Of a DNA stretch of 64,000 nucleotides, positions 17,848-42,276 are shown in pieces. Each line of letters begins with the position of its first letter. The first letter of the stretch is position 1. A program made the position numbers and the translations under genes. The DNA is from Microbacterium sp. Au-Mic1. GTDB taxonomy: Bacteria; Actinomycetota; Actinomycetes; Actinomycetales; Microbacteriaceae. Below the pieces are notes generated by a model. That model made no database searches. It saw only the letters and a list, made by a program, of their open reading frames with translations, and was not told where the DNA came from. The stretch spans positions 1-64,000 of the forward strand of contig NZ_JAJTTF010000007.1 of assembly GCF_021341785.1 (NCBI RefSeq), in the 5' to 3' direction.

Positions 17848-19428
17848 ATGCGACACCGCACCCCGCTCATCGCGATCCTCGGCGCGACCGCCCTCGTCCT
17901 GACGTCCTGCGCCGGAGGCGGCGCAGCCGGAGCCGGCAAGGACGCCGCGCTCGCGACCGGGAAGACGTTCACGCAGGCCATCGCGACCGACCCCGGTTCA
18001 CTCGATCCGTTCATCACGGCGATGTCCGTCGCGCGAGGGATCGACCGGTTCCTGTACTCGCGCCTCGTCGAGATCAAGGACGACGGCAGCATCACATCCG
18101 GCCTCGCGGAGAAGTGGAGCGGCGACACCACGACCGCGACCTTCACGCTGCGCGACAAGCTCACCTGCGACGACGGCACGCCGCTCACGGCGACCGACGT
18201 GGCCGCCAACATCAGCCATGTCGCGGATCCCGCCACCGCCTCTCCCCTCATGGGGCTCCAGGTGCAACCGGGCACGACCGCGGTCGGCGACGACGCCACG
18301 CGGACCGTGACGGTCACGAGCGGCCGCCCCGATTCCTTCCTCCTTCAGAACGTCGGCAGCATCTCGATCGTGTGCGGCACCGTGCTCAAAGACCCCAAGG
18401 CCCTCGCCGCCGGCAAGGGCGCGACGGGCATGTTCACGATGACCGAGATCACGCCGAACAGCCAGTACACCCTGACGCGCCGGAAGGACTTCACCTGGGG
18501 ACCCGGCGACTGGGATCCGACGCAGAAGGGACTGCCGGACAAGGCCGTCTTCCGGATCATCCCGAACGAGACCACGGCGGCCAACCTCGTGATGTCCGGC
18601 GAGGTCAACGCCGCCGGCGTGCTCGGGCCGGATCAGCAACGGCTCCAGAACGCCAAGCTCTTCAACACGCAGATCCTCGCCCCGGCCGGCCAGCTGATCT
18701 ACAACCAGGCGAGCGGCAGGGCCACTTCGGATCCCGCTGTGCGCAAGGCGCTCACCCAGGCGGTGGATCTGACACAGGCCCGTCAGGTGTTCGCGGGCGA
18801 GGAGCCGACCGGCTTCGTCACGGTCGCCCCCAACCCGTGCCGTGCGGACACCGTCAAGGGCAACATCCCCGGTTTCGATGCGAAGGCGGCCGGCGCCGCC
18901 CTCGACGCTGCGGGCTGGAAGCTCGGATCCGACGGAATCAGGGCCAAGGATGGCAAGCCGCTCACGCTCAAGATGATCTACGCCTCGGTTCTCGGCGACA
19001 CCGGCACGGCGGCCGTCGAGCTGCTGCAGTCGATGTGGAAGAAGATCGGGGTGGACGTGACCGTGAAGTCCCTCGACGGCCCTTCGCTCAGCGAGACGCT
19101 GCTGTCGACCGGGGACTGGGACATCTCAGGAGCGGGGGTCACGGTGGGTCTGCCCAGCTCACTGGTGCCGTTCTTCTCCGGACCGACGCCGCCGAACGGC
19201 TCGAACTTCGCCGCGGTGGACGACCCGGCCTACGTCGCCGCGGTGACCGCTGCATCCGCCAAGGCGGGCACCGAAGGATGCGATGACTGGGCCGCCGCGG
19301 AGAAGTCGCTGCTCACGACGTCGTCCGTCGTGCTCTATGCGACCATCGCGCGGCACACCTTCGCCAACAAAGCCACCTTCAGCGAGGACGACGGCATCGC
19401 TCCGACCTCGATCCGCATGTACGAGTGA
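17848..19428 (+). CDS. Peptide ABC transporter substrate-binding lipoprotein (SBP_bac_5)
   Basis: This 526-residue protein starts at an ATG with GGAGG six bases upstream and has a lipoprotein signal ending in LTSC (Cys at residue 21). The mature part shows family 5 features: FTQAIATDPGSLDPF near the N-terminus, YTLTRRKDFTWGPG, and alternating alpha/beta segments to the end. It should catch peptides outside the membrane for the permease genes at 20907 and 21905. A serine hydrolase gene separates it from those genes. I see no obvious promoter between the upstream hairpin and this gene. Confidence 0.9.
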   Translation: MRHRTPLIAILGATALVLTSCAGGGAAGAGKDAALATGKTFTQAIATDPGSLDPFITAMSVARGIDRFLYSRLVEIKDDGSITSGLAEKWSGDTTTATFTLRDKLTCDDGTPLTATDVAANISHVADPATASPLMGLQVQPGTTAVGDDATRTVTVTSGRPDSFLLQNVGSISIVCGTVLKDPKALAAGKGATGMFTMTEITPNSQYTLTRRKDFTWGPGDWDPTQKGLPDKAVFRIIPNETTAANLVMSGEVNAAGVLGPDQQRLQNAKLFNTQILAPAGQLIYNQASGRATSDPAVRKALTQAVDLTQARQVFAGEEPTGFVTVAPNPCRADTVKGNIPGFDAKAAGAALDAAGWKLGSDGIRAKDGKPLTLKMIYASVLGDTGTAAVELLQSMWKKIGVDVTVKSLDGPSLSETLLSTGDWDISGAGVTVGLPSSLVPFFSGPTPPNGSNFAAVDDPAYVAAVTAASAKAGTEGCDDWAAAEKSLLTTSSVVLYATIARHTFANKATFSEDDGIAPTSIRMYE

Positions 19429-19439
19429 GGGGGAGCACC

Positions 19440-20756
19440 ATGCTCGACGACCTTCAGGAGCTGCTGGACGACGGCGCCCGCGAGACGAAGGTGCCCGGCA
19501 TCGCGGTCGGCATCGTCGACGGCGGCGCGGAGCACGTGCTCACGACGGGCGTCGCCTCGACCGCGACCGGGGCGCCCGTGACAGCGGACACCCTGTTCGC
19601 GATCGGATCCACCTCGAAGACCGTGACCGCCACGGCCGCGATGCGCCTCATCGAACAGGGCGCCTTCGACCTGGACACCCGGGTCGCCGACCTCCTGCCC
19701 GATCTCCGGCTGGCCGACGCGGACGCCCTCGACCAGCTCCGAGTGCGGCATCTGCTCACGCACTCCGGCGGCTTCCTCGGCGACATCGACGATGACGCCG
19801 AGGACTGGGGGCCGGATGCGCTGCAGAAGAGCATCGCCGGCTTCGGCGAGCTCCCGCAGCTCTTCCCGCCCGGGGCGATCGCGTCGTACAGCAACAGCGG
19901 TCTGCGCCTGCTCGGCCATCTCTGCGCCGTCGTGGCCGGGCGCGGGTTCGAGGAGCTGATCGCCGAGTCGGTCCTCGGGCCGCTCGGCATGACGGACAGC
20001 GTGTACTTCCCCTGGGAAGCGATCACCCGGCCGGTCGTGACAGGCCACGTCGTCGTCGACGGCGTCGCCCGGCCGGCTCCGGTGTGGGGCCTCACCCGCG
20101 ATCTGGCGCCCGAGGGCGGCCTGCTCTCCTCGGTCCGCGACCAGCTGCGGTATGCCCGGTTCCACCTGCGCGGCGAGGCGGAGGGAACCGCCCCGATCGG
20201 CGACGAGACGCGACGGACGATGCAGCGCGCGCACATCGAGGTGGGTCCGCCGCTGGACGGCATCGGCCTGCCCTGGCTGCTCACGCACGTCGGCGACGCA
20301 CGCGTGGTACGGCACGGCGGGAACATCAGCAATCTGCAGCTCAGCGAGATGGTGCTGCTGCCGGACGACGACCTGGCCGTCACCGTCCTGACGAACGGTG
20401 CGAGCGGGCTCGGTCCGCAGATCGTGTCCTGGTGCCTGGAGAACCTGCGCGGGATCCGTCCTGCGCCGGTGGACGACGTGCCGACCCACCCGTCGCCCGA
20501 CGATGTCCTCGGACGCTACGACGTCAACCTCTGGCAGAACGTGGTGACGCGCGAGCACGACGAGATCGTGATCACGCCCGAGCTGCGCCAGGACCTCATC
20601 GACCTGGGACTCCCGTCGCTGCCGACCGTCCGCGCCACCCTCGGCGCGGACCTGCTGCTGCGCGACCACGACGGGCGCGCGGTGGGCCGGTTCCTCACCG
20701 CCGCGGACGGCACGGAGTTCCTGCACATGGGGCTGCGTGCGGCCCCGCGGATCTGA
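19440..20756 (+). CDS. S12-type serine hydrolase (D-aminopeptidase/beta-lactamase fold)
   Basis: A second family member of 438 residues. The catalytic STSK is at 57-60 and Tyr150 lies in SYSNSG. The product ends in FLHMGLRAAPRI, which resembles the ends of the S12 proteins encoded at 15441 and 24911. I use the ATG at 19440 with GGGGGAG upstream, 11 bp after the SBP stop; a GTG at 19425 overlaps that stop. No signal peptide is present, so it should work on imported substrates. Its place between the SBP and the permease genes ties it to the transporter. Confidence 0.8.
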   Translation: MLDDLQELLDDGARETKVPGIAVGIVDGGAEHVLTTGVASTATGAPVTADTLFAIGSTSKTVTATAAMRLIEQGAFDLDTRVADLLPDLRLADADALDQLRVRHLLTHSGGFLGDIDDDAEDWGPDALQKSIAGFGELPQLFPPGAIASYSNSGLRLLGHLCAVVAGRGFEELIAESVLGPLGMTDSVYFPWEAITRPVVTGHVVVDGVARPAPVWGLTRDLAPEGGLLSSVRDQLRYARFHLRGEAEGTAPIGDETRRTMQRAHIEVGPPLDGIGLPWLLTHVGDARVVRHGGNISNLQLSEMVLLPDDDLAVTVLTNGASGLGPQIVSWCLENLRGIRPAPVDDVPTHPSPDDVLGRYDVNLWQNVVTREHDEIVITPELRQDLIDLGLPSLPTVRATLGADLLLRDHDGRAVGRFLTAADGTEFLHMGLRAAPRI

Positions 20757-20906: not shown

Positions 20907-21905
20907 GTGACCAGCACCACCGCCACCCAGGCGATACTCATCCGATCCGCACGGTCGGGCAGCCCCTGGCTGTCCTTCCTGGTCCGTCGCGGAGGTCTCT
21001 TCGTCCTGTCGGTCTGGGTGCTGGTCACGGCTGCCTTCCTGATGATCCACCTGGTGCCGGGCGACCCCGTGCGCGCCGCCCTGGGACTGAACGCCCCCGT
21101 CGCCCTGGTCGAGGCGCGTCGAGCCGCACTCGGCCTGGACCAGCCGCTGATCGTGCAGTACCTGCACTACCTCGGCAACCTCTTCACCGGCGACATGGGC
21201 GTCTCGATGCTCACCAATCAGCCCGTCTCGGACATCATCGCGACCCGCCTCCCCGCGACGCTGCAGCTCGCGCTTCTCGCCGTGCTGGTGGTGCTGCTGG
21301 CCTCGGTGCCGATCGGCGTCACGATGGCGGTCGCGACGCGCGGCGGCCGCCGGCGCGGACTCGAGCTGAGCTTCGCGGTCGTGACCGTGGTGCTCGCCGC
21401 GATCCCCGAGTTCCTCCTCGCGGTCGGGCTCGTGTACCTCTTCGCCGTCTCGCTCGGCTGGCTCCCGATCGCCGGCGCCTCCGGACCGCTCTCCTTCGTG
21501 CTTCCCGTGACCGCGCTCGCGATCGGTCCGATCGCGGTGTTCTCCCGCCTGATCCGCGTCGAGGTGCTGAGCGTGCTGGGGCAGGACTACATCCGCACCG
21601 CCCGCGCCAAGCGACTGCTCCCCCGTCGCGTCTACACGCGCCACGCGCTCCCCAACGCGATGACGTCGACCCTCACCCTCACCGGGCTGCTGCTGGCCGG
21701 CATGGTCACCGGCACCGTCCTCGCGGAGAACGTCTTCGCCTGGCCGGGGCTCGGCACCATGATCGTGCAGTCGATCCTGACCAAGGACTACCCCGTGGTG
21801 CAGGCGATCGTCCTGGTCTACGGCATGGGCGTGCTGCTCGTGAACCTGGTGATCGACATCGCCCTCGCCGTCCTCGATCCGCGCTCCACGATCAAGGAGG
21901 CCTGA
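20907..21905 (+). CDS. Peptide ABC transporter permease (DppB-like)
   Basis: The 332-residue permease has the N-terminal DppB helix after a basic segment and the EAA loop region (DYIRTARAKRLLPRRVYTRHALPNA) that docks to the ATPase. About six membrane helices are visible. Translation starts at a GTG with GAGGA eight bases before it. The stop overlaps the next start by one base. It pairs with the permease half of the fusion protein to form the channel. Confidence 0.92.
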   Translation: MTSTTATQAILIRSARSGSPWLSFLVRRGGLFVLSVWVLVTAAFLMIHLVPGDPVRAALGLNAPVALVEARRAALGLDQPLIVQYLHYLGNLFTGDMGVSMLTNQPVSDIIATRLPATLQLALLAVLVVLLASVPIGVTMAVATRGGRRRGLELSFAVVTVVLAAIPEFLLAVGLVYLFAVSLGWLPIAGASGPLSFVLPVTALAIGPIAVFSRLIRVEVLSVLGQDYIRTARAKRLLPRRVYTRHALPNAMTSTLTLTGLLLAGMVTGTVLAENVFAWPGLGTMIVQSILTKDYPVVQAIVLVYGMGVLLVNLVIDIALAVLDPRSTIKEA

Positions 21906-23851
21906 TGTCCGCCGCAGCCACGATCAAGAAGGTCGTCCGCACCCCACTCGGATCCGTCTCACTGGCCCTCGTGCTCCTCCTCGTGCTCGTGGCTGTGCTG
22001 GGCCCGCTGGTCTGGGGCGCGCAGGCGGAGCAGATCGACCCGACCGCCGCCTACCGCGCCCCGAGCGCGGCCCACCTGCTCGGCACCGACGCCCTCGGCC
22101 GCGGCGTGCTCGCCCGCGTCATGGTCGCCACACGCCTGTCCCTGGGCCTCGCGATGGCCGCGGTGCTGATCGGCGTCGTCGCGGGGACCGTGCTCGGCAC
22201 GGCCCCGGCGGTGCTGCCCCGGTGGGCGGGCCGCATCCTCTCCACGTTCGTCAACATCGCCGTCGCCTTCCCCGGGCTGCTGCTGGCGCTGTTCCTCGCC
22301 GTGATCTTCGGCGTGGGCACCGTCGGATCGGTCCTCGCGATCGGCTTCGCGATGGCCCCGGGCTTCGCGCGCCTGACCCAGACCCTGTCCGCGGCGATCG
22401 CCGGGCGCGACTTCATCGCCGCGGCGCGGGTGGCGGGCGTGTCGCGCTTCCGCGTGCTGCTCCGGCACGTCCTGCCCAACATCGGCGAGCCGCTCATCGT
22501 CAACGCGACGATCAGCGCGGGCGGCGCGCTCCTCGCCTTCGCCGGCCTGTCCTTCCTCGGGCTGGGCGTGCAGGTGCCGGCGTACGACTGGGGCCGGCTC
22601 CTCGGCGAGGGCCTCAACCGCATCTACCTGAACCCCGCCGCCGCGCTCGGTCCCGCCGCCGCGGTGGTGATCGCGGGACTCGCCTTCAACCTCCTCGGCG
22701 AGACCGCCGCCGCCGCCCTCGGCGGCCGGAACGCACGGCGCCCGCGCCGCCTCCCTCAGACCGCCCCCACGGGCGTCCCCGCGCACGCGCAGGTCGTGAA
22801 CGATGACCTGGTTCTCCTCGTCGACGACCTGCGCGTGTCCTTCCCCGCAGCGGACGGCTGGGTCACCCCGGTCCGCGGCGTGAGCTTCTCGATCTCCCGC
22901 GGCGAGGCGATCGGCGTCGTCGGCGAGTCCGGATCCGGCAAGAGCCTGACCGCACTGGCCGCGGCGCAGCTCATCGAGCGCCCCGGTCACGTGGACGCGG
23001 CCCGGCTCGAGTTCTGCGGCACGCCGCTGCTCGACACCCCCGAGCGGACGCTGCGCCCCCTGCTCGGCACCTCGCTCGCGATGGTGTTCCAGGATCCGAT
23101 GACCTCGTTCAACCCCACCCGCCGGATCGGCTCGCAGCTCGCGGAGGCCGCCACGGAGCACCAGGGCCTCCGCCGCACGGCGGCGATGGAGCGGGCGATC
23201 GAGCGGCTCAGGGCGGTGCGCGTACCGGCAGCCGAGCGCCGTGCACGTCAGTTCCCGCACGAGTTCTCCGGCGGCATGCGCCAGCGCGCGATGATCGCGA
23301 TGGGCCTCATGAACCACCCGCGGCTCATCATCGCGGACGAGCCCACCACGGCGCTCGACGTCACCGTGCAGCGGCAGGTGCTGCAGCTGCTCGCGGGCGT
23401 GCGGCGCGACACCGAGGCCGCGATCCTGCTGATCAGCCACGACATCGCCGTCGTCGCTCAGACCTGCGATCGCGTGCTCGTGATGTACGCGGGACGCATC
23501 GTCGAGGATCTCCCCGCGAACCGGCTGAACGACAGCGCGCGTCATCCCTACACGCGGGCGCTGCTCGACGTCGTGCCCGAGCTCGACACCGACCGCGACG
23601 CACCGCTGCGGATGATCCCCGGCCGTCCGCCCGCGCCGGGGGCGTTCCCCGCCGGCTGCGGGTTCGCGGACCGCTGCCCGCTCGCCTCCGCGCTGTGCCG
23701 GGAGCAGGATCCCGCGCTCGTCGACGCCGGAGACGGGCACAGGGTGGCGTGCTGGCACCCGATCGACGGCGATCTGCCGGTCGCGGCGGTGCCCGCGATC
23801 ACGACGGCCGTGCCGGTGCCCGAGCTCGAATCCGAGGAGGCCGTCCGATGA
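21905..23851 (+). CDS. Fused permease (DppC-like) and ATPase (DppD-like)
   Basis: This 648-residue protein joins two transporter subunits. Residues 1 to about 275 are a DppC-type permease with the N-terminal helix, LLGTDALGRGVLARV motif and EAA loop (DFIAAARVAGVSRFRVLLRHVLPN). After a linker of about 25 residues comes an ABC ATPase with Walker A GESGSGKS (about 339-346), signature SGGMRQR, Walker B IIADEPT and the C-terminal oligopeptide motif FADRCPLAS. The ribosome site AAGGAGG precedes the ATG. Such fusions are known in some bacteria; it fixes a 1:1 ratio of the two parts. There is no frameshift or stop at the junction. Confidence 0.92.
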   Translation: MSAAATIKKVVRTPLGSVSLALVLLLVLVAVLGPLVWGAQAEQIDPTAAYRAPSAAHLLGTDALGRGVLARVMVATRLSLGLAMAAVLIGVVAGTVLGTAPAVLPRWAGRILSTFVNIAVAFPGLLLALFLAVIFGVGTVGSVLAIGFAMAPGFARLTQTLSAAIAGRDFIAAARVAGVSRFRVLLRHVLPNIGEPLIVNATISAGGALLAFAGLSFLGLGVQVPAYDWGRLLGEGLNRIYLNPAAALGPAAAVVIAGLAFNLLGETAAAALGGRNARRPRRLPQTAPTGVPAHAQVVNDDLVLLVDDLRVSFPAADGWVTPVRGVSFSISRGEAIGVVGESGSGKSLTALAAAQLIERPGHVDAARLEFCGTPLLDTPERTLRPLLGTSLAMVFQDPMTSFNPTRRIGSQLAEAATEHQGLRRTAAMERAIERLRAVRVPAAERRARQFPHEFSGGMRQRAMIAMGLMNHPRLIIADEPTTALDVTVQRQVLQLLAGVRRDTEAAILLISHDIAVVAQTCDRVLVMYAGRIVEDLPANRLNDSARHPYTRALLDVVPELDTDRDAPLRMIPGRPPAPGAFPAGCGFADRCPLASALCREQDPALVDAGDGHRVACWHPIDGDLPVAAVPAITTAVPVPELESEEAVR

Positions 23852-24885
23852 GCGAGCTGCGCTTCGATCAGGTGAGCGTGCGCTACGGCACCCACCGCTC
23901 CGGCCTCACCGCCGTCGACGATGTGAGCCTCGTCGTCCCGTCGGGCTCGGTCGTGGGCCTCGTCGGCGAATCCGGATCCGGCAAGTCGACGCTCGCCCGC
24001 GCCGCGATCGGCCTCGCGCCGATCAGCGGCGGCGCGATCACGCTCGACGGTGCTGACGTGCGCGCGCTCCGCCGACGCAGGCCCATCCAGATGGTCTTCC
24101 AGGATCCGTTCTCCTCCCTCGACCCGCGGATGAGCATCGGCGAATCGATCGCCGAGGCGCTGCCCCGCAGCCTGCGCGGCGGCGCGGCCCGGCGCGCCAG
24201 AGTGGCGGAGCTGCTGGAGATGGTCAGTCTCGACGCCGAGCGCGCCGGATCCCTCCCGGCGGCGCTCTCCGGCGGTCAGCGCCAGCGCATCGCCCTTGCT
24301 CGCGCGCTCGCTGCGGATCCCGAGGTCGTGATCGCCGACGAGATCACCTCGGCGCTCGACGTCTCGGTGCAGGGCTCGGTGCTCAACCTCGTCCGCGAGC
24401 TGCGGCGGGAGCTGTCGCTCACGATGCTGTTCATCTCGCACAACCTCGCCGTGGTCCGGTACCTCAGCGATCATCTCGCCGTGATGTATCTCGGCCGCAT
24501 CGTCGAGTTCGGTCCGACCGAGCAGGTCCTCGCCGACCCGCAGCACCCGTACACGCAGGAGCTGCTGGCCGCCGCGCCGACCCGCAACGGCGACCTCCTG
24601 CGCACGGGCGGCGTCTCGACCCTCGACGCCGAGCCGCCGGACCCGCACTCCCCGCCGAACGGGTGCCGCTTCCACCCGCGGTGCCCGATCGGGCCCTCCG
24701 TGCATCCGGATCGCGCGGTCTGCCGCACCGTCATCCCGGTCCTGCCCACGGGCGTCCGCGGCGCCTCGTGCCACTTCTCGGCCTTCGGCGCCGAGCCGTC
24801 GGCCACCGCTGTGCCCGGCGCCCAAGAGGCAGCCGGCCTTTCGGCGGGCACGACAACATGCGCCGTCCCCGTGCGGACACAGTGA
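23848..24885 (+). CDS. Peptide ABC transporter ATPase (DppF-like)
   Basis: The second ATPase subunit, 345 residues, has Walker A GESGSGKST near residue 40, signature LSGGQRQR, Walker B VVIADEITSALD and the C-terminal cysteine motif FHPRCPIGPS. Its ATG overlaps the fusion gene's TGA (ATGA). Together with the ATPase half of the fusion protein it powers import. Confidence 0.92.
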   Translation: MSELRFDQVSVRYGTHRSGLTAVDDVSLVVPSGSVVGLVGESGSGKSTLARAAIGLAPISGGAITLDGADVRALRRRRPIQMVFQDPFSSLDPRMSIGESIAEALPRSLRGGAARRARVAELLEMVSLDAERAGSLPAALSGGQRQRIALARALAADPEVVIADEITSALDVSVQGSVLNLVRELRRELSLTMLFISHNLAVVRYLSDHLAVMYLGRIVEFGPTEQVLADPQHPYTQELLAAAPTRNGDLLRTGGVSTLDAEPPDPHSPPNGCRFHPRCPIGPSVHPDRAVCRTVIPVLPTGVRGASCHFSAFGAEPSATAVPGAQEAAGLSAGTTTCAVPVRTQ

Positions 24886-24910: not shown

Positions 24911-27900
24911 ATGAACCGCCCCGCGACCGTCGACGACCTCCTCGCCATCGCCTCCCCCGAGCAGCCCGCCCTCTCCCCGGACGGCACGCGCGTCGTGTAC
25001 GCGCTGCGCACGACGGACCGCGACGCCGACCGCGACCTCCGATCGCTCTGGCAGGTCTCCACCAGCGGAGGCGGGCCCGAGCGGCTCACCCGCGGAGACG
25101 CCGACACCACGCCCGTGTGGAGTCCGGACGGATCCGCACTCGCGTTCCTGCGCGCCCAGCAGGGCCCCGCACAGCTCTGGGTCCTGCCCGCGTCCGGCGG
25201 CGAGGCCCGCGCGCTCACCGACCTGCCGCTCGGGGCCGGCTCCCCGCAGTGGAGCCCCGACGGCACGCGCATCGCGTTCGCCGCGCCGGTGGACAGCGCG
25301 GCCCTGCCCGGCGAGAGCGCCGAGACGATCCTCGCCCGCCGTTCCGCCCCGACCGTCGCCGATCGTCTCGGGTACAAGGCCGACGGTGCGGGCCGGCTCG
25401 GCACGCTCGTGCAGCAGCTGCACGTCGTCGACGTCGCCACCGGGGCCGTCACCGTGCTGACCCGCGGCCGCGCGCACGCCTCCGATCCGTTCTGGTCGCC
25501 CGACGGATCCCTGCTCGCATACTCCTCCGCGCCGGACGACGACGCCGATCTCACTCTGCGCATCCAGGTCTTCGTCACCTCCTCGACCGACGCAAACAGC
25601 GCCCCCGTGCGGGTGAGCGCCTCCGGGGTGCAGGCCGGCGCCGTCGGCTGGAGCGCCGACGGACGGCACGTGCTCGCCGCCGGCCGCAATGACACCGAGG
25701 TCGGCAACGCGGATCTGCTGCTCTTCCCGCTCGCGGACGGCGCCCCGACGAATCTCACCTCAGGGCTCGACCGCAACGTGATGCCCGGCGGTCCCGGATA
25801 CCCCGGCGGCATGCCGCAGCACGCCGCCGACGGCGCGCTCGTGTTCTGCCTGCGTGAGAACGGTTCCTCCCACCTCTGGCGCATCGCGGAGGACGGCTCC
25901 GCCGCCCGCGCGCTCGTGGACGGCATGGCGAACGTCTCGGGGCTGTCCGTCGCGGGCTCGACCGCCGCGATCGTGCGGTCCGGCCCCGACTCCTTCGGCG
26001 AGGTCGTCCTCGTCGACCTGACCGACGGCACGACCACGGTGCTCACCGCGTCGCCCGACCCCGGGTTCGATCTCGTCCCCGCCGAGGAGCGGAGGTTCAC
26101 GATCTCCGACGGCACCGTGGTCACCGGATGGCTACGGCGGGATCCGAACGCCTCCGGCCCGCTCGCGCTGCTGCTCGACGTGCACGGCGGACCGCACAAC
26201 GCCTGGAACGGCGCGGCCGACCTGGTCCATCCCTACCACCAGGTGCTCGCGAGCCGCGGCTGGGCGATCCTCACCCTCAACCCACGCGGCAGCGACGGCT
26301 ACGGGGACGCGTTCTTCCGCGCCGTGGCCGGCGGCTGGGGCGTGAGCGACGCGAACGACTTCCTCGAGCCGATCGACGCTCTCGTCGCAGAGGGCATCGC
26401 GGATCCGGCCCGCCTCGCCCTCACCGGATACAGCTACGGCGGGTTCATGACCTGCTATCTCACCTCGCGCGACGACCGCTTCGCGGCCGCCGTCGCCGGC
26501 GGCGTCGTGACCGACCTGTTCTCGATGGGCGGCACGTCCGACATGGGCCACTACCTCTCCGCGAAGGAGAACGGCGGCCTGCCGTGGCGCGACGAGGCTC
26601 TCATCTCGGCGCAGTCCCCGTTCACCCACGTCGACCGGGTCACCACGCCGACCCTGATCCTGCACGGCGCGGAGGACGACCGCTGCCCCGTCGGTCAGGC
26701 GGAGCAGTGGTTCACTGCGCTGCGCGAGCGCGACGTGCCGACGCGCCTCGTGCTGTATCCCGGCGGCTCGCACCTGTTCCCGCTGTCCGGTCCGCCCTCG
26801 CACCGGGCCGACTTCTCCCGACGTGTGATCGACTGGGTCGAGCAGTACGCCCCCGCCGCCGGCCGCCCTGTGCGCGCGCGACTGGACGCGCGGCACTGGC
26901 AGCAGCGGCTCAGCACGCTCGCGGCCGCGCACAAGGTGCCGGGTGCGACGCTCGGCATCCTCCGTCTCGGCGAGGATCCCGTGTTCGCCCGTCACGGCAT
27001 CCTGAACGTGCGCACCGGAGTCGCCACGACGGATGACTCCCTGTTCCAGATCGGATCCATGACCAAGGTCTGGACGACCACCGCGATCATGCGGCTCGTG
27101 GACGACGGCGTGCTCGATCTCGACCGACCGGTCGTGGAGTACCTTCCCGAGTTCCGCTCGTCCGAGGACGAGATCACGAGGACCGTGACCCTCCGTCATC
27201 TGCTCACCCACACGAGCGGCATCGACGGCGACGTCTTCACCGACACCGGTCGCGGGGACGACGCTCTCGAGAAGTACGTCGGCATCCTGGACGGCGTCGC
27301 GCAGAACCATCCCATCGGCGCCACCATGTCCTATTGCAACTCGGGATTCGTTCTGGCCGGACGGGTGATCGAGAAGGTCACCGGAAAGACCTGGGACCAG
27401 GCTCTGCGGGACCTGGTCATGACGCCGCTCGGCCTCGAGCATTCGGCGACGCTGCCCGAGGAGGTGCTGCTGCACAGCGCGGCCGCGGGCCACACCGAGA
27501 TCCTCGACGACGGTCCGAAGCTCGCCCCGGCCTGGATGCTGCCCCGGGCGATGGGACCGGCCGGGCTGGTCTGCTCCACGACGGCCGACGTGCTCGCCTT
27601 CGCGCGCATGCACCTCACCGGCGGCCTCGCCGCGGACGGCACCCGCGTGCTCTCCGAGCGCAGCGTGGCGCGCATGCAGCAGCGCGAGGTCGACATGCCG
27701 AACCCGTACACGCTCGGGGACGCCTGGGGCGTCGGCTGGATCCTCTTCGACTGGAACGGACGGCGGCTGTACGGCCACGACGGCAACACGATCGGCCAGT
27801 CCGCGTTCCTGCGCGTGCTGCCCGACGAGGGCGTCGCGGTCACCCTGCTGACGAACGGCGGAGGCGCGCACGACCTCTACCTCGAGCTGTTCGAGGAGAT

Positions 27901-28246
27901 CTTCTCGGAGGTCGCCGACGTGCATCTCCCCGAGGAGCTCGCTCCGCCCGTGGATCCCTTCGTCGCCGACTTCTCGGAGCTGTTCGGCACCTACGACCGC
28001 GCCGGGGTGCGGGCGGAGGTGCTCGACTCGGATGCCGGGCTGAGGCTGCGGACGACGGTGACGGGACCGCTCGCGGCACTGCTCCCGGATCCGGTCGAGG
28101 AGCACGCGCTGATCCCGGTGCGGGAGAACGAGTTCGTCGTCCGGCCCGAGGGCACGCAGGCGTGGAACGCCGTGGTCTTCTACCGCCTCGCCAGCGGCGA
28201 GCAGTACCTGCACTACGGCGTGCGCGCGGCGCCGAAGGTCTCGTGA
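24911..28246 (+). CDS. Fusion of S9 prolyl-oligopeptidase-type peptidase and S12 serine hydrolase
   Basis: One 1111-residue frame encodes two complete hydrolases. Residues 1 to about 390 are WD/TolB-like propeller repeats (SPDGTRVV, WSPDGS), and 390-650 are an alpha/beta hydrolase with Ser508 in GYSYGG, Asp589/590 in GAEDDRCP and His621 in GGSHLF, an S9 acylaminoacyl/dipeptidyl peptidase. From about 660 to the end is an S12 domain with Ser716-Met-Thr-Lys719, Tyr808 in SYCNSG and His956 in GHDGNTIGQ, ending in YLHYGVRAAPKVS. No signal peptide is present. Both active sites look intact. The fusion suggests one enzyme trims L-residues and the other D-residues from the same peptide; that is inference. 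The ATG has GGAG eight bases before it, 25 bp after dppF. Confidence 0.88.
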   Translation: MNRPATVDDLLAIASPEQPALSPDGTRVVYALRTTDRDADRDLRSLWQVSTSGGGPERLTRGDADTTPVWSPDGSALAFLRAQQGPAQLWVLPASGGEARALTDLPLGAGSPQWSPDGTRIAFAAPVDSAALPGESAETILARRSAPTVADRLGYKADGAGRLGTLVQQLHVVDVATGAVTVLTRGRAHASDPFWSPDGSLLAYSSAPDDDADLTLRIQVFVTSSTDANSAPVRVSASGVQAGAVGWSADGRHVLAAGRNDTEVGNADLLLFPLADGAPTNLTSGLDRNVMPGGPGYPGGMPQHAADGALVFCLRENGSSHLWRIAEDGSAARALVDGMANVSGLSVAGSTAAIVRSGPDSFGEVVLVDLTDGTTTVLTASPDPGFDLVPAEERRFTISDGTVVTGWLRRDPNASGPLALLLDVHGGPHNAWNGAADLVHPYHQVLASRGWAILTLNPRGSDGYGDAFFRAVAGGWGVSDANDFLEPIDALVAEGIADPARLALTGYSYGGFMTCYLTSRDDRFAAAVAGGVVTDLFSMGGTSDMGHYLSAKENGGLPWRDEALISAQSPFTHVDRVTTPTLILHGAEDDRCPVGQAEQWFTALRERDVPTRLVLYPGGSHLFPLSGPPSHRADFSRRVIDWVEQYAPAAGRPVRARLDARHWQQRLSTLAAAHKVPGATLGILRLGEDPVFARHGILNVRTGVATTDDSLFQIGSMTKVWTTTAIMRLVDDGVLDLDRPVVEYLPEFRSSEDEITRTVTLRHLLTHTSGIDGDVFTDTGRGDDALEKYVGILDGVAQNHPIGATMSYCNSGFVLAGRVIEKVTGKTWDQALRDLVMTPLGLEHSATLPEEVLLHSAAAGHTEILDDGPKLAPAWMLPRAMGPAGLVCSTTADVLAFARMHLTGGLAADGTRVLSERSVARMQQREVDMPNPYTLGDAWGVGWILFDWNGRRLYGHDGNTIGQSAFLRVLPDEGVAVTLLTNGGGAHDLYLELFEEIFSEVADVHLPEELAPPVDPFVADFSELFGTYDRAGVRAEVLDSDAGLRLRTTVTGPLAALLPDPVEEHALIPVRENEFVVRPEGTQAWNAVVFYRLASGEQYLHYGVRAAPKVS

Positions 28247-29379
28247 TGGCGGCGCAGGCCCGCATCGCGGAGGCTCCTGAGGTCTCCCCCGACGTGATCG
28301 TCGCGGACATCGGCACGCTGGTGCGCTGCGAATCGCCCTCGCACGACGGGGAGGCGCTCCTGCGCAGCGCCGAGGTCACCGCGGCACTCGGCGAGCGCGT
28401 GCTCGGCGCCGCTCCCGAGCGCATCGTCATCGACGGCACGCCCCATCTGCGCTGGCGGTTCGGCACTCCCCGAGTGCTGCTGCTCGGACACCACGACACG
28501 GTGTGGCCGAGCGGATCCCTCGAGCGTCTCCCGTTCGGCGTCGAGGACGGCGTCCTGCGCGGGCCGGGCTGCTTCGACATGAAGACCGGCGTCGTGATGG
28601 CGCTGCACGCGGTCGCCGCGCTCGACGACCGCGAGGGCGTGAGCATCCTCATCACGGGCGACGAGGAGCTCGGATCGCCGTCGTCGCGCGCCCTCATCGA
28701 GAGCGAGGCGCGCGGCTGCGCGGCCGCTCTCGTGCTCGAGGCCTCGGCCGACGGCGGCGCGGTCAAGGTGGCACGCAAGGGCGTCTCGGTCTACCGCGTG
28801 CACGTCACCGGACGCGCCGCGCACGCGGGCCTCGAACCCGAACGCGGGGTGAACGCCTCGGTCGAGGCGGCCCACCTCATCCTCTCGATCGCAGCGCTGG
28901 GCGATGACGAGGCCGGCACGACGGTGACGCCCACGCTGCTCCGGGCGGGCACCGCCGGCAACACGGTGCCCGCGGAGGCCGAGTTCACCGTCGACGTGCG
29001 CGCGGTCACCCGCACCGAGCAGGACCGCGTCGACGCGGCGCTGCACGCCCTCGGCACGACCCTTCCCGGCGCCCTGGTGCGCATCGAGGACGGCCCGCGG
29101 AGCACGCCGATGGAGCGGAGCGCCTCCGCCGGCCTGTTCGCCCGTGCGCGCGCGATCGCGGACGAGCTGGGCCTGGCCCCGCTCGAGGGCGTCGCCGTGG
29201 GCGGCGGCTCGGACGGCAACCACACGGCCGGCATCGGAGTGCCGACGCTCGACGGCCTCGGCGCGGTCGGCGGCGGTGCGCATGCCGACGACGAGCACGT
29301 GATCGTCGACATGATCCCCGAGCGCATCGCCCTGGTGCGAGAACTCATCGCGGACGTCCTGACAGGAGGCGGAAGATGA
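28246..29379 (+). CDS. M20 metallohydrolase, candidate L-N-succinylamino acid desuccinylase
   Basis: This 377-residue enzyme has the M20 metal and catalytic motifs in order: GHHDTVWP, GPGCFDMKTG, TGDEELGS, a Glu in LEAS, and HADDEHV near the end. It resembles carboxypeptidase G2/ArgE-type enzymes. In the D-to-L amino acid pathway a hydrolase of this family removes the succinyl group from the L-isomer, and the gene order here (M20, GNAT, racemase) fits that role. The ATG at 28246 shares one base with the upstream TGA; a GTG three bases earlier is an alternative. It overlaps the GNAT gene by four bases. Confidence 0.85.
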   Translation: MAAQARIAEAPEVSPDVIVADIGTLVRCESPSHDGEALLRSAEVTAALGERVLGAAPERIVIDGTPHLRWRFGTPRVLLLGHHDTVWPSGSLERLPFGVEDGVLRGPGCFDMKTGVVMALHAVAALDDREGVSILITGDEELGSPSSRALIESEARGCAAALVLEASADGGAVKVARKGVSVYRVHVTGRAAHAGLEPERGVNASVEAAHLILSIAALGDDEAGTTVTPTLLRAGTAGNTVPAEAEFTVDVRAVTRTEQDRVDAALHALGTTLPGALVRIEDGPRSTPMERSASAGLFARARAIADELGLAPLEGVAVGGGSDGNHTAGIGVPTLDGLGAVGGGAHADDEHVIVDMIPERIALVRELIADVLTGGGR

Positions 29380-30239
29380 CCATCATGGGAACCTCCATGC
29401 AGGAGACCGCGGCCGCCGCGAGTGCCGCCGACGCCGCTGCGGCGGAGGCCGGAATCGAGATCCGGATCCTCTCCCGGGTCGAGGAGTTCGCCCAGGTGAC
29501 CGCACTCTTCCGCGGCATCTGGACCGCGGCGGGCGACCGCGCGCCGGTCAACGTGGAGACGCTGCGCGCGCTCTCGAAGGCCGGCAGCTACGTCGGAGGG
29601 GCCTACGAGGGCGATGAGCTCGTGGGCGCGTGCTTCGGCTTCTTCGCGGCACCGGAGCGGCGCGCGCTGCACAGTCACATCGCGGGGGTCTCCGCGCGCA
29701 TGCGCGGACGGAACGTGGGCTTCGCGCTCAAGGTGCACCAGCGATCCTGGGCGCTCGAGCACGGCCTCGACGAGATCTCCTGGACGTTCGACCCGCTGAT
29801 CAGTCGCAACGCCTACTTCAACCTCGTGAAGCTCGCGGCCACGCCGACGGGATACCTCCGCAACTTCTACGGTCAGATGAGCGATGCGCTGAACGGCGCC
29901 GACGACACCGATCGCATGCTGGTCACCTGGTATCTGCACGATCCGGCGGTGTCGGCAGCCTGTCGCGGCTCCGCCCCCGCGACGACGACAGGGCCGGCCG
30001 ACACGCTGCTCGGCCGGGAGGACGACACGATGCCGGTCGTGCGCGAGACCTCGGCCCGGCTCGTCCGCGTCTCGCTCCCCCGGGACATCGAATCCCTCCG
30101 TCGCACGGATCCGGAGCTCGCCACGCGCTGGCGACTCGCCGTGCGCGCGACCCTCGGCGACCTCATGGACGACGGAGCGCGCGTGCTCTCCTTCGATCGC
30201 TCCGGCGCCTACACCATCGACAGAGGAGAAGTGCAATGA
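29376..30239 (+). CDS. GNAT-family acyltransferase (COG3375-like), candidate D-amino acid N-succinyltransferase
   Basis: The 287-residue protein is a long GNAT variant. LVGACFGFFAAP and SHIAGVSARMRGRNVGFALKVHQRSWAL form the acyl-CoA pyrophosphate-binding region (residues about 84-128), followed by WTFDPLISRNAYFNL, typical of the COG3375 group. In the known pathway a member of this group transfers succinyl from succinyl-CoA to the D-amino acid. Starts at 29376 (ATGA overlap) or at the ATG 15 bp later are both possible. It overlaps the racemase gene by four bases, so the three enzymes are made together. Confidence 0.82.
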   Translation: MTIMGTSMQETAAAASAADAAAAEAGIEIRILSRVEEFAQVTALFRGIWTAAGDRAPVNVETLRALSKAGSYVGGAYEGDELVGACFGFFAAPERRALHSHIAGVSARMRGRNVGFALKVHQRSWALEHGLDEISWTFDPLISRNAYFNLVKLAATPTGYLRNFYGQMSDALNGADDTDRMLVTWYLHDPAVSAACRGSAPATTTGPADTLLGREDDTMPVVRETSARLVRVSLPRDIESLRRTDPELATRWRLAVRATLGDLMDDGARVLSFDRSGAYTIDRGEVQ

Positions 30240-31342
30240 AGCTCAGCGGGATCGAACTCCGCGTCATCGAGATGCCCCTGGTGTCTCCGTTCCGCACATC
30301 GTTCGGAGTCGCGACCGCACGCGAGGCGCTGCTCGTGCGGGCCGTGACGGATGAGGCCGAGGGCTGGGGCGAGGGCGTCGCGATGGCCGATCCGCTGTAC
30401 TCCTCCGAGTACGTCGAGGCGAGCGTCGACGTGATCACCCGCTTCCTGCTGCCCGCCCTGGCCCAGGTGCCGGACCTCGACGCGTCCAAGGTCGCGCCCG
30501 CCCTGGCGAAGTTCAAGGGGCACCGGATGTCGAAGGCGGCCGTCGAGCTCGCGATCCTCGATGCCGAGCTGCGTGCCAAGGGCGTGCCGCTCTCCCGGGA
30601 GCTGGGCGCCGTGCGCTCGCAGGTCGACTGCGGCGTGTCCGTCGGGATCATGGACTCGATCCCCGAGCTCCTCGACGCCGTGGGCGGCTATCTGGACGAG
30701 GGCTATGTCCGGATCAAGCTGAAGATCGAGCCGGGCTGGGACGTCGAGCCCGTGCGCGCCGTCCGCGAGCGGTTCGGCGACGACGTGCTGCTGCAGGTGG
30801 ATGCCAACACGGCGTACCACCGCGGCGATGCGGGACACCTCGCCCGCCTCGACCCGTTCGACCTGCTGCTCATCGAGCAGCCGCTGGACGAGGAGGATCT
30901 GCTCGGCCACGCCCAGCTGGCGAAGGCGGTGCGGACGCCGATCTGCCTGGACGAGTCGATCGTGTCCGCCCGCGCGGCGGCCGATGCGATCGCCCTCGGC
31001 GCATGCTCGATCGTGAACATCAAGCCCGGTCGGGTCGGCGGCTATCTCGAGGCGCGGCGGATCCACGACGTCTGCGCCGCCAACGACATCCCCGTCTGGT
31101 GCGGCGGCATGCTCGAGACGGGGATCGGGCGGGCGGCCAACGTCGCACTCGCCGCGCTTCCCGGCTTCACGCTCCCCGGCGACACGTCCGGCTCGAACCG
31201 CTACTACACGCGCGACATCACGGATCCGTTCGTGATCGACGACGGCACTCTCGCAGTGCCCACGGGCCCCGGGATCGGCGTGACCCCGACCGCCGAGGCG
31301 CTCGAGGAGGTCACGGTCCGCACCGAGTGGATCACCTTCTGA
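30236..31342 (+). CDS. N-acylamino acid / N-succinylamino acid racemase (enolase superfamily)
   Basis: The 368-residue product has the same length and very similar sequence to Amycolatopsis N-acylamino acid racemase, as I recall it. All catalytic residues of the muconate-lactonising subgroup are visible: Lys161 and Lys163 (RIKLKIEPG), metal ligands Asp189 (VDAN), Glu214 (LIEQPL), Asp239 (CLDES), and Lys263 (NIKPGR). These enzymes may also make o-succinylbenzoate for menaquinone (MenC activity), but no other men gene is near, and the neighbours are the M20 and GNAT genes of the D-to-L pathway. It interconverts N-succinyl-D- and L-amino acids. A terminator follows 24 bp after the stop. Confidence 0.9.
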   Translation: MKLSGIELRVIEMPLVSPFRTSFGVATAREALLVRAVTDEAEGWGEGVAMADPLYSSEYVEASVDVITRFLLPALAQVPDLDASKVAPALAKFKGHRMSKAAVELAILDAELRAKGVPLSRELGAVRSQVDCGVSVGIMDSIPELLDAVGGYLDEGYVRIKLKIEPGWDVEPVRAVRERFGDDVLLQVDANTAYHRGDAGHLARLDPFDLLLIEQPLDEEDLLGHAQLAKAVRTPICLDESIVSARAAADAIALGACSIVNIKPGRVGGYLEARRIHDVCAANDIPVWCGGMLETGIGRAANVALAALPGFTLPGDTSGSNRYYTRDITDPFVIDDGTLAVPTGPGIGVTPTAEALEEVTVRTEWITF

Positions 31343-31547: not shown

Positions 31548-33197
31548 GTGCTCATGTCAGTGACGACGCGTCCACGTGCCAGTCTCGGTCGCGTGGTGGA
31601 GGACCTCGGCACCACGCTGCTCGAGGTGGTGTGCGGCGCGGCCGACGGCGACGCCGAGATCGAGACCGTCGTCATCCACGACGTGCTCGACGACGGGATG
31701 CCGATGCGCGGAGCGATGGTGCTCGGCGTGGGGCTGAGCGACCCGGCCGAGATCGCCGACCTGCTCGCCGCCCTCGCCGCGCAGCAGGCCACCGCCCTCG
31801 TCCTGCGCGCCCCGGTGCGTGCGGAGGAGCAGGTGCTCGCCGCGTCCGAAGCCGCGGGCATCCCGGTGCTGGCCCTCACGCGCGGCGCATCCTGGGCGCA
31901 GCTGGCAGCCATGCTCCGCTCCCTGATCGCCGAGGGCGACGTCGGCGACCAGGGCGCGCAGACGCTCGGCGGAATGCCCTCGGGTGATCTGTTCGCGCTC
32001 GCCAACGCGATCGCCACCCTCCTCAACGCGCCGGTCACCATCGAGGACCGCAACTCGCGCGTCGTGGCCTTCTCCGGACGCCAGGACGAAGCCGATCCCG
32101 CCCGTGTCGAGACGGTCCTGGGCCGCCAGGTGCCGGAGCGGTTCACCCGTCAGCTCGAGGAGCGCGGCGTCTTCGGAGATCTCTACCGCAGCGAGGATCC
32201 GATCGACATCGATCCGGTCGACGCCGACGGGGTTCCGTCCTTCCCCCGGGTCGCCCTCGCCGTCCGCGCGGGCGACGAGATCCTCGGCTCGATCTGGGCC
32301 GCCGTGCACGAACCCCTCACCGCGGATCGCGTGCGCGCGCTCAAGGACTCCGCCGGGCTCGTCGCCCTGCACATGCTCCGCCAGCGCGCGGGCGCCGATG
32401 TCGAGCGGCGGCTCCGCGCCGACCTGCTCGCCACCGTCCTGGAAGGCGGGACCGGTGCCGCGGATGCCGCCTCCCGGCTGCGTCTCGACGGACACCGCTG
32501 CGTCGTGCTCGCCCTCGCCGCCGCGGATCGCTTCGGAGACGAGTCCTCCGCGGACGCCAGAGCCATCGCGGAGCGGCAGCACATCGCGGACGCGTTCGCG
32601 ATGCATCTCGGCGCGGTGTACCTGCGTTCGGCGGTCGCGCCGATCGGCGACGTCGTCTACGCGGTCGTCGGGATCCGCGCCGATCACGGCGATGCCGACC
32701 TCCGCGCATCGCGGGTCGCGTCCGACTTCCTCGGCCGCCTCGGCAGCACCCGCGAGGTGCGCGTCGGAGTCGGCACGGTCGCGGAGGACATGCAGAGCAT
32801 CCCCGCGTCGCGCATGAACGCGGATCGCGCGCTGCGCGTGCTCCAGCACTCCCGGCATCGCGAACCCGTGGCGCTGTTCACCGCGGTGCAGGTGGACGCG
32901 CTGCTCGTCGAGCTCGGCGATCTCGCCCGCGCGCGAGGGGATCAGCCGACCGGCCCGGTCCGCCTGCTGATCGACCACGATCGCGAGAAGGGCACCCAGC
33001 TCATCGAGACATTGCGGGCCTGGCTGGACGCGTTCGGAGATGTCAGCATCGCGGCCGCCCGCATCTACACGCACCCGAACACGTTCCGCTATCGGCTGCG
33101 CCGGCTCGCCGAGATCAGCGGTTTGGACCTTGCGGACCCCGAATCGCGGTTCTCCGCGATGATGCAGCTGCGCCTGCTCACCGCCGAGAAGCGCTGA
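31548..33197 (+). CDS. PucR-family transcriptional regulator
   Basis: The 549-residue protein has an N-terminal PucR-type domain (residues about 10-130, with HDVLDDG and LVLRAP), a middle region like a GAF domain, and a C-terminal PucR helix-turn-helix (YTHPNTFRYRLRRLAEISGLDL, followed by ESRFSAMMQLRLL). Members usually activate catabolic genes in response to a nitrogen compound. It is encoded right after the racemase operon on the same strand and is the natural candidate to bind the tandem sites at 13696, 15312 and 20782. Effector unknown; a D-amino acid or N-acyl derivative is a guess. A start at the ATG six bases later is possible. Confidence 0.88.
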   Translation: MLMSVTTRPRASLGRVVEDLGTTLLEVVCGAADGDAEIETVVIHDVLDDGMPMRGAMVLGVGLSDPAEIADLLAALAAQQATALVLRAPVRAEEQVLAASEAAGIPVLALTRGASWAQLAAMLRSLIAEGDVGDQGAQTLGGMPSGDLFALANAIATLLNAPVTIEDRNSRVVAFSGRQDEADPARVETVLGRQVPERFTRQLEERGVFGDLYRSEDPIDIDPVDADGVPSFPRVALAVRAGDEILGSIWAAVHEPLTADRVRALKDSAGLVALHMLRQRAGADVERRLRADLLATVLEGGTGAADAASRLRLDGHRCVVLALAAADRFGDESSADARAIAERQHIADAFAMHLGAVYLRSAVAPIGDVVYAVVGIRADHGDADLRASRVASDFLGRLGSTREVRVGVGTVAEDMQSIPASRMNADRALRVLQHSRHREPVALFTAVQVDALLVELGDLARARGDQPTGPVRLLIDHDREKGTQLIETLRAWLDAFGDVSIAAARIYTHPNTFRYRLRRLAEISGLDLADPESRFSAMMQLRLLTAEKR

Positions 33198-42181: not shown

Positions 42182-42249
42182 GTCCCGCCGCCTTCCCGTT
42201 CCGACGCAGCCCACCCTAGGGCGCGGGCGTTCGTCCGAACAGGGACCTA

Positions 42250-42271
42250 GGCCCTGTCTTGGGCGAGGGCC
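42250..42271 (-). terminator. Possible weak terminator after the methyltransferase gene
   Basis: GGCCCT and AGGGCC form a six-pair stem with a ten-base loop just past the methyltransferase stop. It is short and not well supported. Confidence 0.25.
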
Positions 42272-42276
42272 AGGCG

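Follow-up and report, generated by a model that had tools for sequence, protein, structure and literature searches.

Joined S9 and S12-lipocalin serine hydrolases in one conserved actinobacterial protein, with a putative role in the use of mixed-chirality peptides

Does a gene of Microbacterium sp. Au-Mic1 encode two serine hydrolases in a single polypeptide, and what would such an enzyme do between a peptide importer and an amino acid racemase? The gene lies in the window, by which we mean the whole 64,000-nucleotide stretch analysed (positions 1 to 64,000 of contig NZ_JAJTTF010000007.1). An initial annotation had proposed one uninterrupted frame with a complete S9 peptidase and a complete S12 hydrolase, and this was borne out. 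The frame at 24911-28246 (+ strand) starts with ATG, has GGAG 6-9 bases upstream, contains no internal stops and encodes 1111 amino acids. Pfam placed PD40 in two stretches, Peptidase_S9 at residues 444-647 and Beta-lactamase/S12 at 665-988, with both enzyme domains above their cut-offs. No signal peptide was seen on the fusion protein by eye, and the protein is presumably cytoplasmic.

Two hydrolase halves and a terminal barrel

The S9 half (residues 1-647; 24911-26851, + strand) was assigned from Pfam, fold match and conservation. It consists of an N-terminal beta-propeller (PD40, 80.1 bits against a cut-off of 20.9) and an alpha/beta-hydrolase domain (PF00326, 153.5 bits against 22.6). Judged by sequence and by the modelled fold, its nearest relatives are S9 carboxypeptidases of the prolyl oligopeptidase family, and the likeness covers propeller and hydrolase across the entire half. 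The Geobacillus S9 carboxypeptidase 8wt1 was aligned with the model at Z 39.0 (625 residues, rmsd 2.3, model residues 3-648) and Deinococcus S9 peptidases at Z 35.9-36.9, these enzymes being 31-32% identical to the S9 half; the Fusobacterium enzyme 7ep9, a carboxypeptidase by its title, was 21% identical (Z 34.4). The Deinococcus S9 enzyme, of which we take 5yzm-6ikg to be the D. radiodurans structures, has carboxypeptidase activity, its specificity being set by arginines that bind the substrate carboxylate and by a specific loop. These relatives stand alone, whereas in the window protein an S12-lipocalin unit follows the predicted carboxypeptidase-like half. The proposed Ser508 and His621 were both present, and with Asp589 they form a triad found in the window protein, in 126/126 other fusions and in all 12 stand-alone S9 rows. 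The acid had been given as Asp589/590; Asp589 is invariant in the 126 other fusions, whereas position 590 is D in 43 of them and otherwise L, V, E, R, H, Q or A.

The S12 (penicillin-recognising) domain (26897-27979, + strand) was likewise identified by Pfam, fold and conservation (PF00144, 214.7 bits against a cut-off of 27). All four residues named beforehand, Ser716, Lys719, Tyr808 and His956, were found, in the motifs S716-x-x-K719, Y808-x-N810 and H956-x-G958. The model of this half together with its C-terminal extension reached pLDDT 92.7 and pTM 0.93. The extension (residues about 1024-1111; 27980-28243, + strand) is a lipocalin-like beta-barrel, its strands being present in both models and the alignment to 7spn covering S12 domain and barrel; this third domain was absent from the initial annotation. 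A class C beta-lactamase was rejected as an identity for this half: NF033085 scored 71.6 bits, under its cut-off of 415, and KTG, the third motif of that class, is absent, with His-Asp-Gly at 956-958 instead. An Atxe2-type lasso-peptide isopeptidase was rejected as well (NF033523, 150.3 bits, cut-off 400).

The top relative of the S12 half, both in sequence (profile score 277 bits) and in fold (7spn, Z 47.7 over 440 residues spanning 3-457 of 457), was IS11. After this esterase, the half is nearest to enzymes acting at D-residues. The PBP-type cyclases SurE (6ksu, Z 41.8) and Ulm16 (8fek, Z 41.7) share the two-domain S12-lipocalin build of the fusion's C-terminal part, and SurE accepts a C-terminal D-residue; these are thioesterases of non-ribosomal peptide synthesis, whereas the fusion gene lies in a catabolic-looking operon. 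Pab87 (2qmi) followed at Z 40.5, with mainly the S12 domain aligned, and then Lip3 DL-peptidase (9sn1, 38.6), alkaline D-peptidase (38.2), D-amino acid amidase (37.8) and ClbP (37.7). Since plain beta-lactamases (Z about 37-38) nearly overlap the D-peptidases (Z 37.6-40.5) in this search, the fold does not tell which substrate is used. The archaeal Pab87 and the Chloroflexi IS11 are S12 hydrolases with a lipocalin domain, as in the fusion, but both stand alone, with no S9 enzyme attached. They also differ from each other: Pab87 is a self-compartmentalising octamer preferring D-residues, whereas IS11 is described as an esterase dimer. According to PMC2651629, Pab87 degrades D-amino-acid peptides from both the N- and the C-terminus, and its gene lies among peptide-transport genes.

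That the nearest relative is described as a carboxylesterase counts against a D-peptide reading. According to PMC9972953, IS11 is active towards short-chain esters, p-nitrophenyl butyrate among them, and it has the same Ser-x-x-Lys, Tyr-x-Asn, catalytic His and lipocalin lid. The S12 half could then be an esterase or an N-acyl or depsipeptide hydrolase (family VIII-like), opening ester- or acyl-linked peptides ahead of S9 trimming, with chirality incidental. We regard this as unlikely. The neighbouring genes specify an oligopeptide importer and M20, GNAT and racemase proteins; an amidohydrolase of the N-acyl-D-amino-acid deacylase kind (13777-15264, + strand) resembles D-aminoacylases; and the lipocalin-barrel relatives Pab87 and SurE act on peptides with D-residues.

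Conservation and history of the joined gene

A scan of genome contigs gave 594 pattern matches and 574 relatives, and the best 80 of these were used as loci. Ranking was by match to the full-length query, which favours fusions, so that counts from this set are not proportions. In all of these 80 best-matching loci, from at least 11 actinobacterial families, the gene was one full-length frame (80/80 when all HSPs were used; 77/80 with one HSP per pair and identical rows used once). No stop or frameshift between the domains was found in them, which rules out an assembly or frameshift artefact.

For the active-site counts and the trees, rows were taken from one HSP per pair, identical rows were used once and the window protein served as the reference and was excluded. 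This gave 126 fusions, 32 + 82 + 9 stand-alone S12 rows and 12 stand-alone S9 rows. We looked for homologues in which one site was inactive, and found both sites intact in 126/126 distinct fusions (S508, D589, H621, S716, K719, Y808, N810, H956), so a dead second active site is also ruled out. An altered SxxK residue was seen in 2 of the 32 stand-alone S12 relatives (L104, L105). Pairwise dN/dS against five relatives ranged from 0.14 to 0.35 in the S9 half and from 0.08 to 0.28 in the S12 half; both halves are therefore under purifying selection.

Rows spanning both halves were found in 38/295 genomes of the genus (E cut-off 1e-150) and, at 1e-100, in 5/396 genomes of the order, 27/394 of the class and 2/396 of the phylum, the window's own genome being included each time. 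Among plasmids, 10 of 199 matching records had a single place that covered 80% or more of the query; these were all from Streptomyces or Embleya. The joined S9 and S12-lipocalin protein is thus a distinct, conserved and widespread actinobacterial enzyme family; taken singly, the halves belong to known kinds, and it is their joining that sets the family apart.

The two halves also occur unjoined. S9 and S12 adjoin each other as separate genes, at loci of this type, in L222 (41-base gap), L218 and L219 (25-base overlap in each, if the ATGs are the starts); they lie apart within one locus in L220/L221, L095, L100 and L103; and S12 occurs without S9 in the same place in L097 and L228, so that co-action of the two is not obligatory. 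On quick trees the fused state required 8 changes on the S12 tree (86/249 S12 rows; long-branch warning) and 4 on the S9 tree (51/138 rows plus 5 outgroup rows, one identical to L107), counts that do not separate gain from loss. On the S12 tree the stand-alone rows L222, L218, L219, L221 and L230 diverge below the main group of fusions. On the S9 tree 8 of the clade's 11 stand-alone rows nest among fusions, a placement that suggests fission.

The unfused adjoining pairs and the S12-only loci would be expected if there were no joint function, that is, if neighbouring operon genes had simply lost the stop between them and the halves worked alone on unrelated peptides. We consider this conceivable, though rather improbable. 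The joined form has been retained over 43-96% identity and the linker (26852-26896, + strand) varies little in length: 20 residues separate the fixed tryptophans W642 and W663 in the window protein, and 15-23 (median 20) do so across 53 fusions. Moreover, where the halves are unfused they still occupy loci of this type.

The surrounding locus and its recurrence

The gene had been placed between an importer and a racemase triad, and this arrangement was confirmed, with Opp genes on its 5' side and M20-GNAT-NSAR on its 3' side, all on the + strand. Upstream lie S12a (15441-16829), a stand-alone S12 paralogue that shares 48% identity with the S12 half of the fusion; a class A beta-lactamase-fold protein (PF13354; 16826-17731); the importer's substrate-binding protein (17848-19428); a second S12 paralogue, S12b (19425-20756); an OppB-type permease (20907-21905); an OppC-type permease fused to an OppD-type ATPase (21905-23851); and an OppF-type ATPase ending 25 bases ahead of the fusion (23848-24885). 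The start of the binding protein is approximate, being a lipobox-like start chosen by eye (526-amino-acid reading); a 47% identical homologue is annotated as an ABC transporter substrate-binding protein.

Downstream, three genes form one set at 28246-31342 with one- and four-base overlaps. An M20 metallopeptidase (28246-29379) shares the first base of its start with the fusion's stop; a putative GNAT-type N-acyltransferase (29376-30239) overlaps it by ATGA; and an N-acyl/N-succinylamino acid racemase, NSAR (30236-31342; TIGR01928 over cut-off), overlaps the latter in the same way. The GNAT label comes from a 48% identical homologue so annotated, which likewise lacks an NCBIfam match; the window's product had no match of its own in Pfam, NCBIfam or PDB. 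A menaquinone role for this 'menC'-type gene is unlikely, and the racemase is not needed for menaquinone because another gene in this genome encodes MenC (461 bits, cut-off 288). NSAR-GNAT-M20 sets turn D- into L-amino acids in the Geobacillus NSAR pathway. The window shares with the NSAR route an overlapping set of the three genes, here beside the fusion; that route begins with free D-amino acids, whereas the window's set is linked to peptide import and to D-peptidase-like enzymes.

The racemase has its closest relative in 1sja, an N-acylamino acid racemase from Amycolatopsis (593 bits). This bears on the reading that the fusion is confined to peptidoglycan stem peptides (D-Ala, D-Glu, meso-DAP), which it would recycle or scavenge. 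DD-carboxypeptidases (R61) are among the S12 relatives, and Pab87 removes the C-terminal D-Ala of muropeptides (PMC2651629). However, the substrates listed for the Amycolatopsis enzyme include N-acetyl-methionine and N-succinyl-phenylglycine, and models for dipeptide (L-Ala-D/L-Glu) epimerases stayed under cut-off on the window racemase. Restriction to stem peptides therefore seems to us the least probable of the readings considered.

We also asked how often this context recurs. NSAR lay within the fetched stretch of 54 of the 80 best loci (of 574 relatives), at a median centre distance of 4.9 kb from the fusion, and M20, GNAT and NSAR occurred together in 48 of the 80. By comparison, M20, GNAT and NSAR were each present in 0/17 control stretches, which surrounded S9 or S12 genes not belonging to the fusion family. 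Six of these controls came from the 12 places in the window's own genome that match the fusion, after exclusion of four that lie in the window (the fusion, S12a, S12b and an S12 gene at 41 kb) and of two C14 places near a second NSAR cluster; one control, L272, had no S12 match on filtering, its match being weak. NSAR was absent from the fetched stretch of the other 26 of the 80 loci, and 22 of 25 genomes searched among these had it elsewhere. In nine (L132, L133, L135, L137, L142, L149, L157, L164, L170), not counted in the 54, the position and strand of NSAR fit a place 0.7-2.2 kb beyond the fetched flank, and going by position numbers it probably lies on the same contig as the fusion. No NSAR was found at E 1e-60 in 3 of the 25 searched genomes; as some fusion genomes lack it, the fusion does not strictly need the NSAR route.

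A PucR-type regulator (31548-33197, + strand) adjoins the locus. It belongs with the evidence on a further reading, in which the locus serves defence or detoxification and imported D-rich non-ribosomal peptide antibiotics are destroyed by the S12 and S9 enzymes. Lip3, one of the S12 fold relatives, cleaves DL-amide bonds of a lipopeptide, and the D-peptidase TriF degrades tridecaptins, according to their published descriptions. A dedicated importer and a D-to-L route would rather fit feeding, however, the adjoining PucR-type regulator also speaks against defence, and the lasso-peptide isopeptidase score was far under its threshold (150 bits against 400). We consider a defence role very unlikely.

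A proposed role in heterochiral peptide use

Processing of peptides with mixed L and D residues, as suggested at the outset, remains the best reading because both sites are intact, the gene sits between the importer and M20-GNAT-NSAR, and this context recurs; the esterase relationship of the S12 half, by both sequence and fold, tells against it. We estimate a probability of roughly 0.6 that the fusion is a bifunctional exopeptidase for imported peptides holding D- and L-residues. The Opp importer would take up oligopeptides. The S9 half, built like S9 carboxypeptidases, would strip C-terminal L-residues, and the S12 half with its lipocalin-like lid would cleave at D-residues, which bring L-specific peptidases to a halt; in this way the two sites, carried on a single chain, might trim a heterochiral peptide alternately. 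Freed D-amino acids would be N-acylated (succinylated) by the GNAT protein and inverted by NSAR, and the M20 hydrolase would release L-amino acids. Which chirality and which terminus (N or C) each site prefers is presumed, as are the identity of the acyl group (succinate), the sequence of the steps and any benefit of joining S9 and S12. The full scheme, in which sites of opposite stereochemistry (S9 carboxypeptidase for L, S12-lipocalin for D) alternate on one imported peptide and pass D-amino acids to the linked NSAR route, is put forward tentatively, with somewhat more doubt than belief.

We know of no earlier described enzyme of the S9 carboxypeptidase and S12-lipocalin build. The initial annotation, too, had known of no described enzyme with this pairing. 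No description of an S9-S12 pair was found in the open-licence literature searched, a weak indication that there is none; the protein itself is nevertheless no one-off but a widespread actinobacterial family, for which the annotated records examined say "serine hydrolase" and nothing more specific. A 2008 survey lists 5 multi-domain proteins among 254 of S12 type; an S9 domain occurs in none of the four that are set out in the section consulted.

If the proposed scheme is true, this would be the first described enzyme with S9 carboxypeptidase and S12-lipocalin sites of opposite stereochemistry. The fusion may also be of use as a tool to break or read mixed-chirality peptides. To our knowledge, the role of actinobacterial N-acylamino acid racemases is an open puzzle, which the gene context makes directly testable by growth on D-residue-containing peptides. 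The long-studied racemase would then have a physiological role, the eating of heterochiral peptides. Many related bacteria keep the fusion together with genes for peptide import and D-to-L conversion, which probably aids them in feeding on peptides with D-amino acids.

One reading frame, two conserved active sites

The S9-S12 fusion gene (24911-28246, + strand) starts with an ATG preceded at 6-9 bases by GGAG, lies 25 bases after the OppF gene and remains open for 1111 codons. The initial annotation had placed both peptidases in one frame, and this was borne out: the frame is uninterrupted, Pfam recognised two PD40 stretches, Peptidase_S9 (444-647) and Beta-lactamase (S12, 665-988), and all the named residues were found. 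Its "Asp589/590" could be narrowed to Asp589, which is conserved; position 590 varies.

A profile built from 20 aligned fusions was run against 84,980 species genomes, and the best 80 loci of at least 594 pattern matches (at least 574 relatives) were analysed. These 80 (56-94% identity) all belong to Actinomycetota, with 26 named genera and 11 named families represented. No stop separating the domains was found, both halves sharing one frame in 80/80 of these best loci. As the ranking by match to a full-length query favours fusions, this figure establishes the frame as real but gives no measure of its frequency. Nor is one site dead in all homologues: S508, D589, H621, S716, K719, Y808, N810 and H956 were each present in 126/126 distinct fusion sequences. 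These eight catalytic-type residues were also invariant in fusion alignments of 20 and 53 sequences, and pairwise dN/dS was well below 1 for the S9 and S12 halves alike. Two related stand-alone S12 genes differ in the SxxK motif, with A for S in L104 (genome G485) and Q for K in L105 (G474); since one residue is altered in each, this lineage may be losing activity.

The full-length model (pLDDT 86.2, pTM 0.75; residues 768-808 weak) predicts a propeller and hydrolase followed by the S12 fold and, last, a beta-barrel. Modelled alone, the S12 part scored pLDDT 92.7 and pTM 0.93. The predicted S9 half best matched S9 carboxypeptidases (8wt1, Z 39.0, rmsd 2.3 over 625 residues). The modelled S12 half plus barrel aligned over the whole length with IS11 (Z 47.7), SurE (Z 41.8) and Ulm16 (Z 41.7), and residues 4-357 of the S12 model with Pab87 (Z 40.5). 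Lip3 DL-peptidase, alkaline D-peptidase, D-amino acid amidase and ClbP gave Z 37.7-38.6 against the S12 half, and plain beta-lactamases came close to these D-peptidase-type matches at about 37-38. Among these fold relatives, Pab87 attacks peptides with D-residues from either end (PMC2651629), SurE accepts a C-terminal D-residue (PMC11735501), Lip3 cleaves DL-amide bonds (PMC13188892) and IS11 is described as a carboxylesterase (PMC9972953); the predicted fold thus favours action at D-residues without proving it.

Distribution and unfused forms

Frequency was taken from whole-genome samples, counting rows that span both halves and including the window's own genome each time. Such rows occurred in 38/295 genomes of the genus (E 1e-150) and, at E 1e-100, in 5/396 of the order, 27/394 of the class and 2/396 of the phylum. 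A fusion of 50% identity (G1086) comes from another class of the same phylum. On these counts the family is patchy and present in at least one further class. Annotated records examined name the product "serine hydrolase". One Arthrobacter sp. B2a2-09 locus (L120, 19.1 kb) holds two fusion copies, the second belonging to a distant clade and adjoining its own racemase and acyltransferase genes. In L094 (G270) the module is broken into many short frames, perhaps from sequencing indels.

Several relatives are unfused. L222 keeps the window's order (SBP-OppB-OppCD-OppF-S9-S12-M20-GNAT-NSAR), but S9 and S12 are separate genes with a 41-base gap and GGAG ahead of the second ATG. In L218 and L219 the two genes are in different frames and share 25 bases (start codons as judged in all three loci); PucR, SBP and Opp genes follow, and NSAR was not found in the fetched stretch. 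In L220/L221, L095, L100 and L103 a single locus holds S9 and S12 at a distance from each other, along with NSAR and GNAT. A lone S12 occupies the fusion's place in L228 and L097. S9 lies near NSAR in L223, L224 and L225, where any S12 present is distant (29-35%), and in L238, where no S12 was seen in the locus. NSAR was in the stretch for 9/11 stand-alone S9 rows of the fusion clade; the twelfth such row (L107), outside the clade, had no NSAR in its stretch. Either half alone is thus tied to D-amino acid genes, and no other observation argues more strongly that the two share substrates. The S9 and S12 trees are compatible with one fusion later undone or with repeated fusion.

The surrounding operon

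On the + strand the genes run D-aminoacylase-like amidohydrolase, S12a (15441-16829), class A-fold protein, substrate-binding protein (SBP), S12b (19425-20756), the oligopeptide importer genes OppB, OppC-OppD and OppF, fusion, M20 metallopeptidase, N-acyltransferase (GNAT), N-acyl/N-succinylamino acid racemase (NSAR) and PucR. The fusion stop overlaps the M20 start by one base; M20/GNAT and GNAT/NSAR overlap by four each. The closest match of the racemase is Amycolatopsis N-acylamino acid racemase (593 bits), and that of the M20 protein is carboxypeptidase G2; a true MenC is encoded elsewhere in the genome. The GNAT protein had no family or PDB match of its own and takes its name from an annotated homologue with 48% identity.

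In flanks of up to 10 kb on either side of the best 80 fusion loci (of at least 574 relatives), some of them cut short by contig ends, homologues were found of OppF (72), OppC-OppD (67), OppB (66) and SBP (65), counts that take in distant homologues because transporter parts form large families; when matches under 150 bits were set aside, 64/80 loci had SBP together with every Opp part. GNAT was found in 56, NSAR in 54 (10 named families) and M20 in 53, all three together in 48/80. The others were S12a (59), PucR (50), class A-fold (39), amidohydrolase (13) and S12b (8). These loci are mutually related, not independent. In 17 control stretches, around 12 S9 and 5 S12 genes outside the fusion family, NSAR, GNAT and M20 had no matches.

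The class A beta-lactamase-fold protein (PF13354, 16826-17731) stands in the operon beside three S12-type enzymes; among the best 80 loci its homologues reach 60-70% identity in several other families. OppC permease and OppD ATPase form one protein (21905-23851), likewise in relatives, recorded as "dipeptide/oligopeptide/nickel ABC transporter permease/ATP-binding protein". Some 13 kb downstream from the fusion, the - strand encodes a further S12-type protein (41009-42742) that, judged by eye, carries a signal resembling that of a lipoprotein. A second cluster in the same genome (contig C14, about 339-356 kb; L248, L249) carries NSAR (69% identical), GNAT, M20 and PucR on one strand; close by lie Opp genes and, as separate frames, an S12 gene sharing 48% identity with S12a and one distantly resembling S9.

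Proposed role and novelty

Our best reading is that S9 and S12 together trim peptides of mixed chirality and pass D-amino acids to NSAR. Opp would bring the peptides in; the S9 half would trim C-terminal L-residues and the S12 half cut bonds at D-residues, its lipocalin-like part possibly serving as a lid. D-amino acids would then be N-acylated from a presumed acyl donor, NSAR would invert them and M20 would release them; fusing the two halves may bring some benefit. GNAT-NSAR-M20 sets reportedly turn D- into L-amino acids in Geobacillus. For NSAR-type enzymes, a review lists N-acyl and N-succinyl amino acids as racemase substrates (PMC8142540). The mixed L/D processing first proposed is partly supported, both sites being kept and D-amino acid genes recurring, while the end and chirality preferred by each half are what we infer.

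By tested sequence and structure features, each half belongs to a known family. The joined protein appears new in form: a 2008 survey (PMC2605481) counts five multi-domain proteins in a set of 254 of S12 type, the four described in one section have no S9 domain, and no description of the joined protein was found in open-licence literature. The records being public, domain-architecture databases very probably list the pairing already. The S9-S12 fusion is not a freak; it is a conserved, apparently undescribed, predicted two-site peptidase, whose place in D-peptide use is clear and testable.
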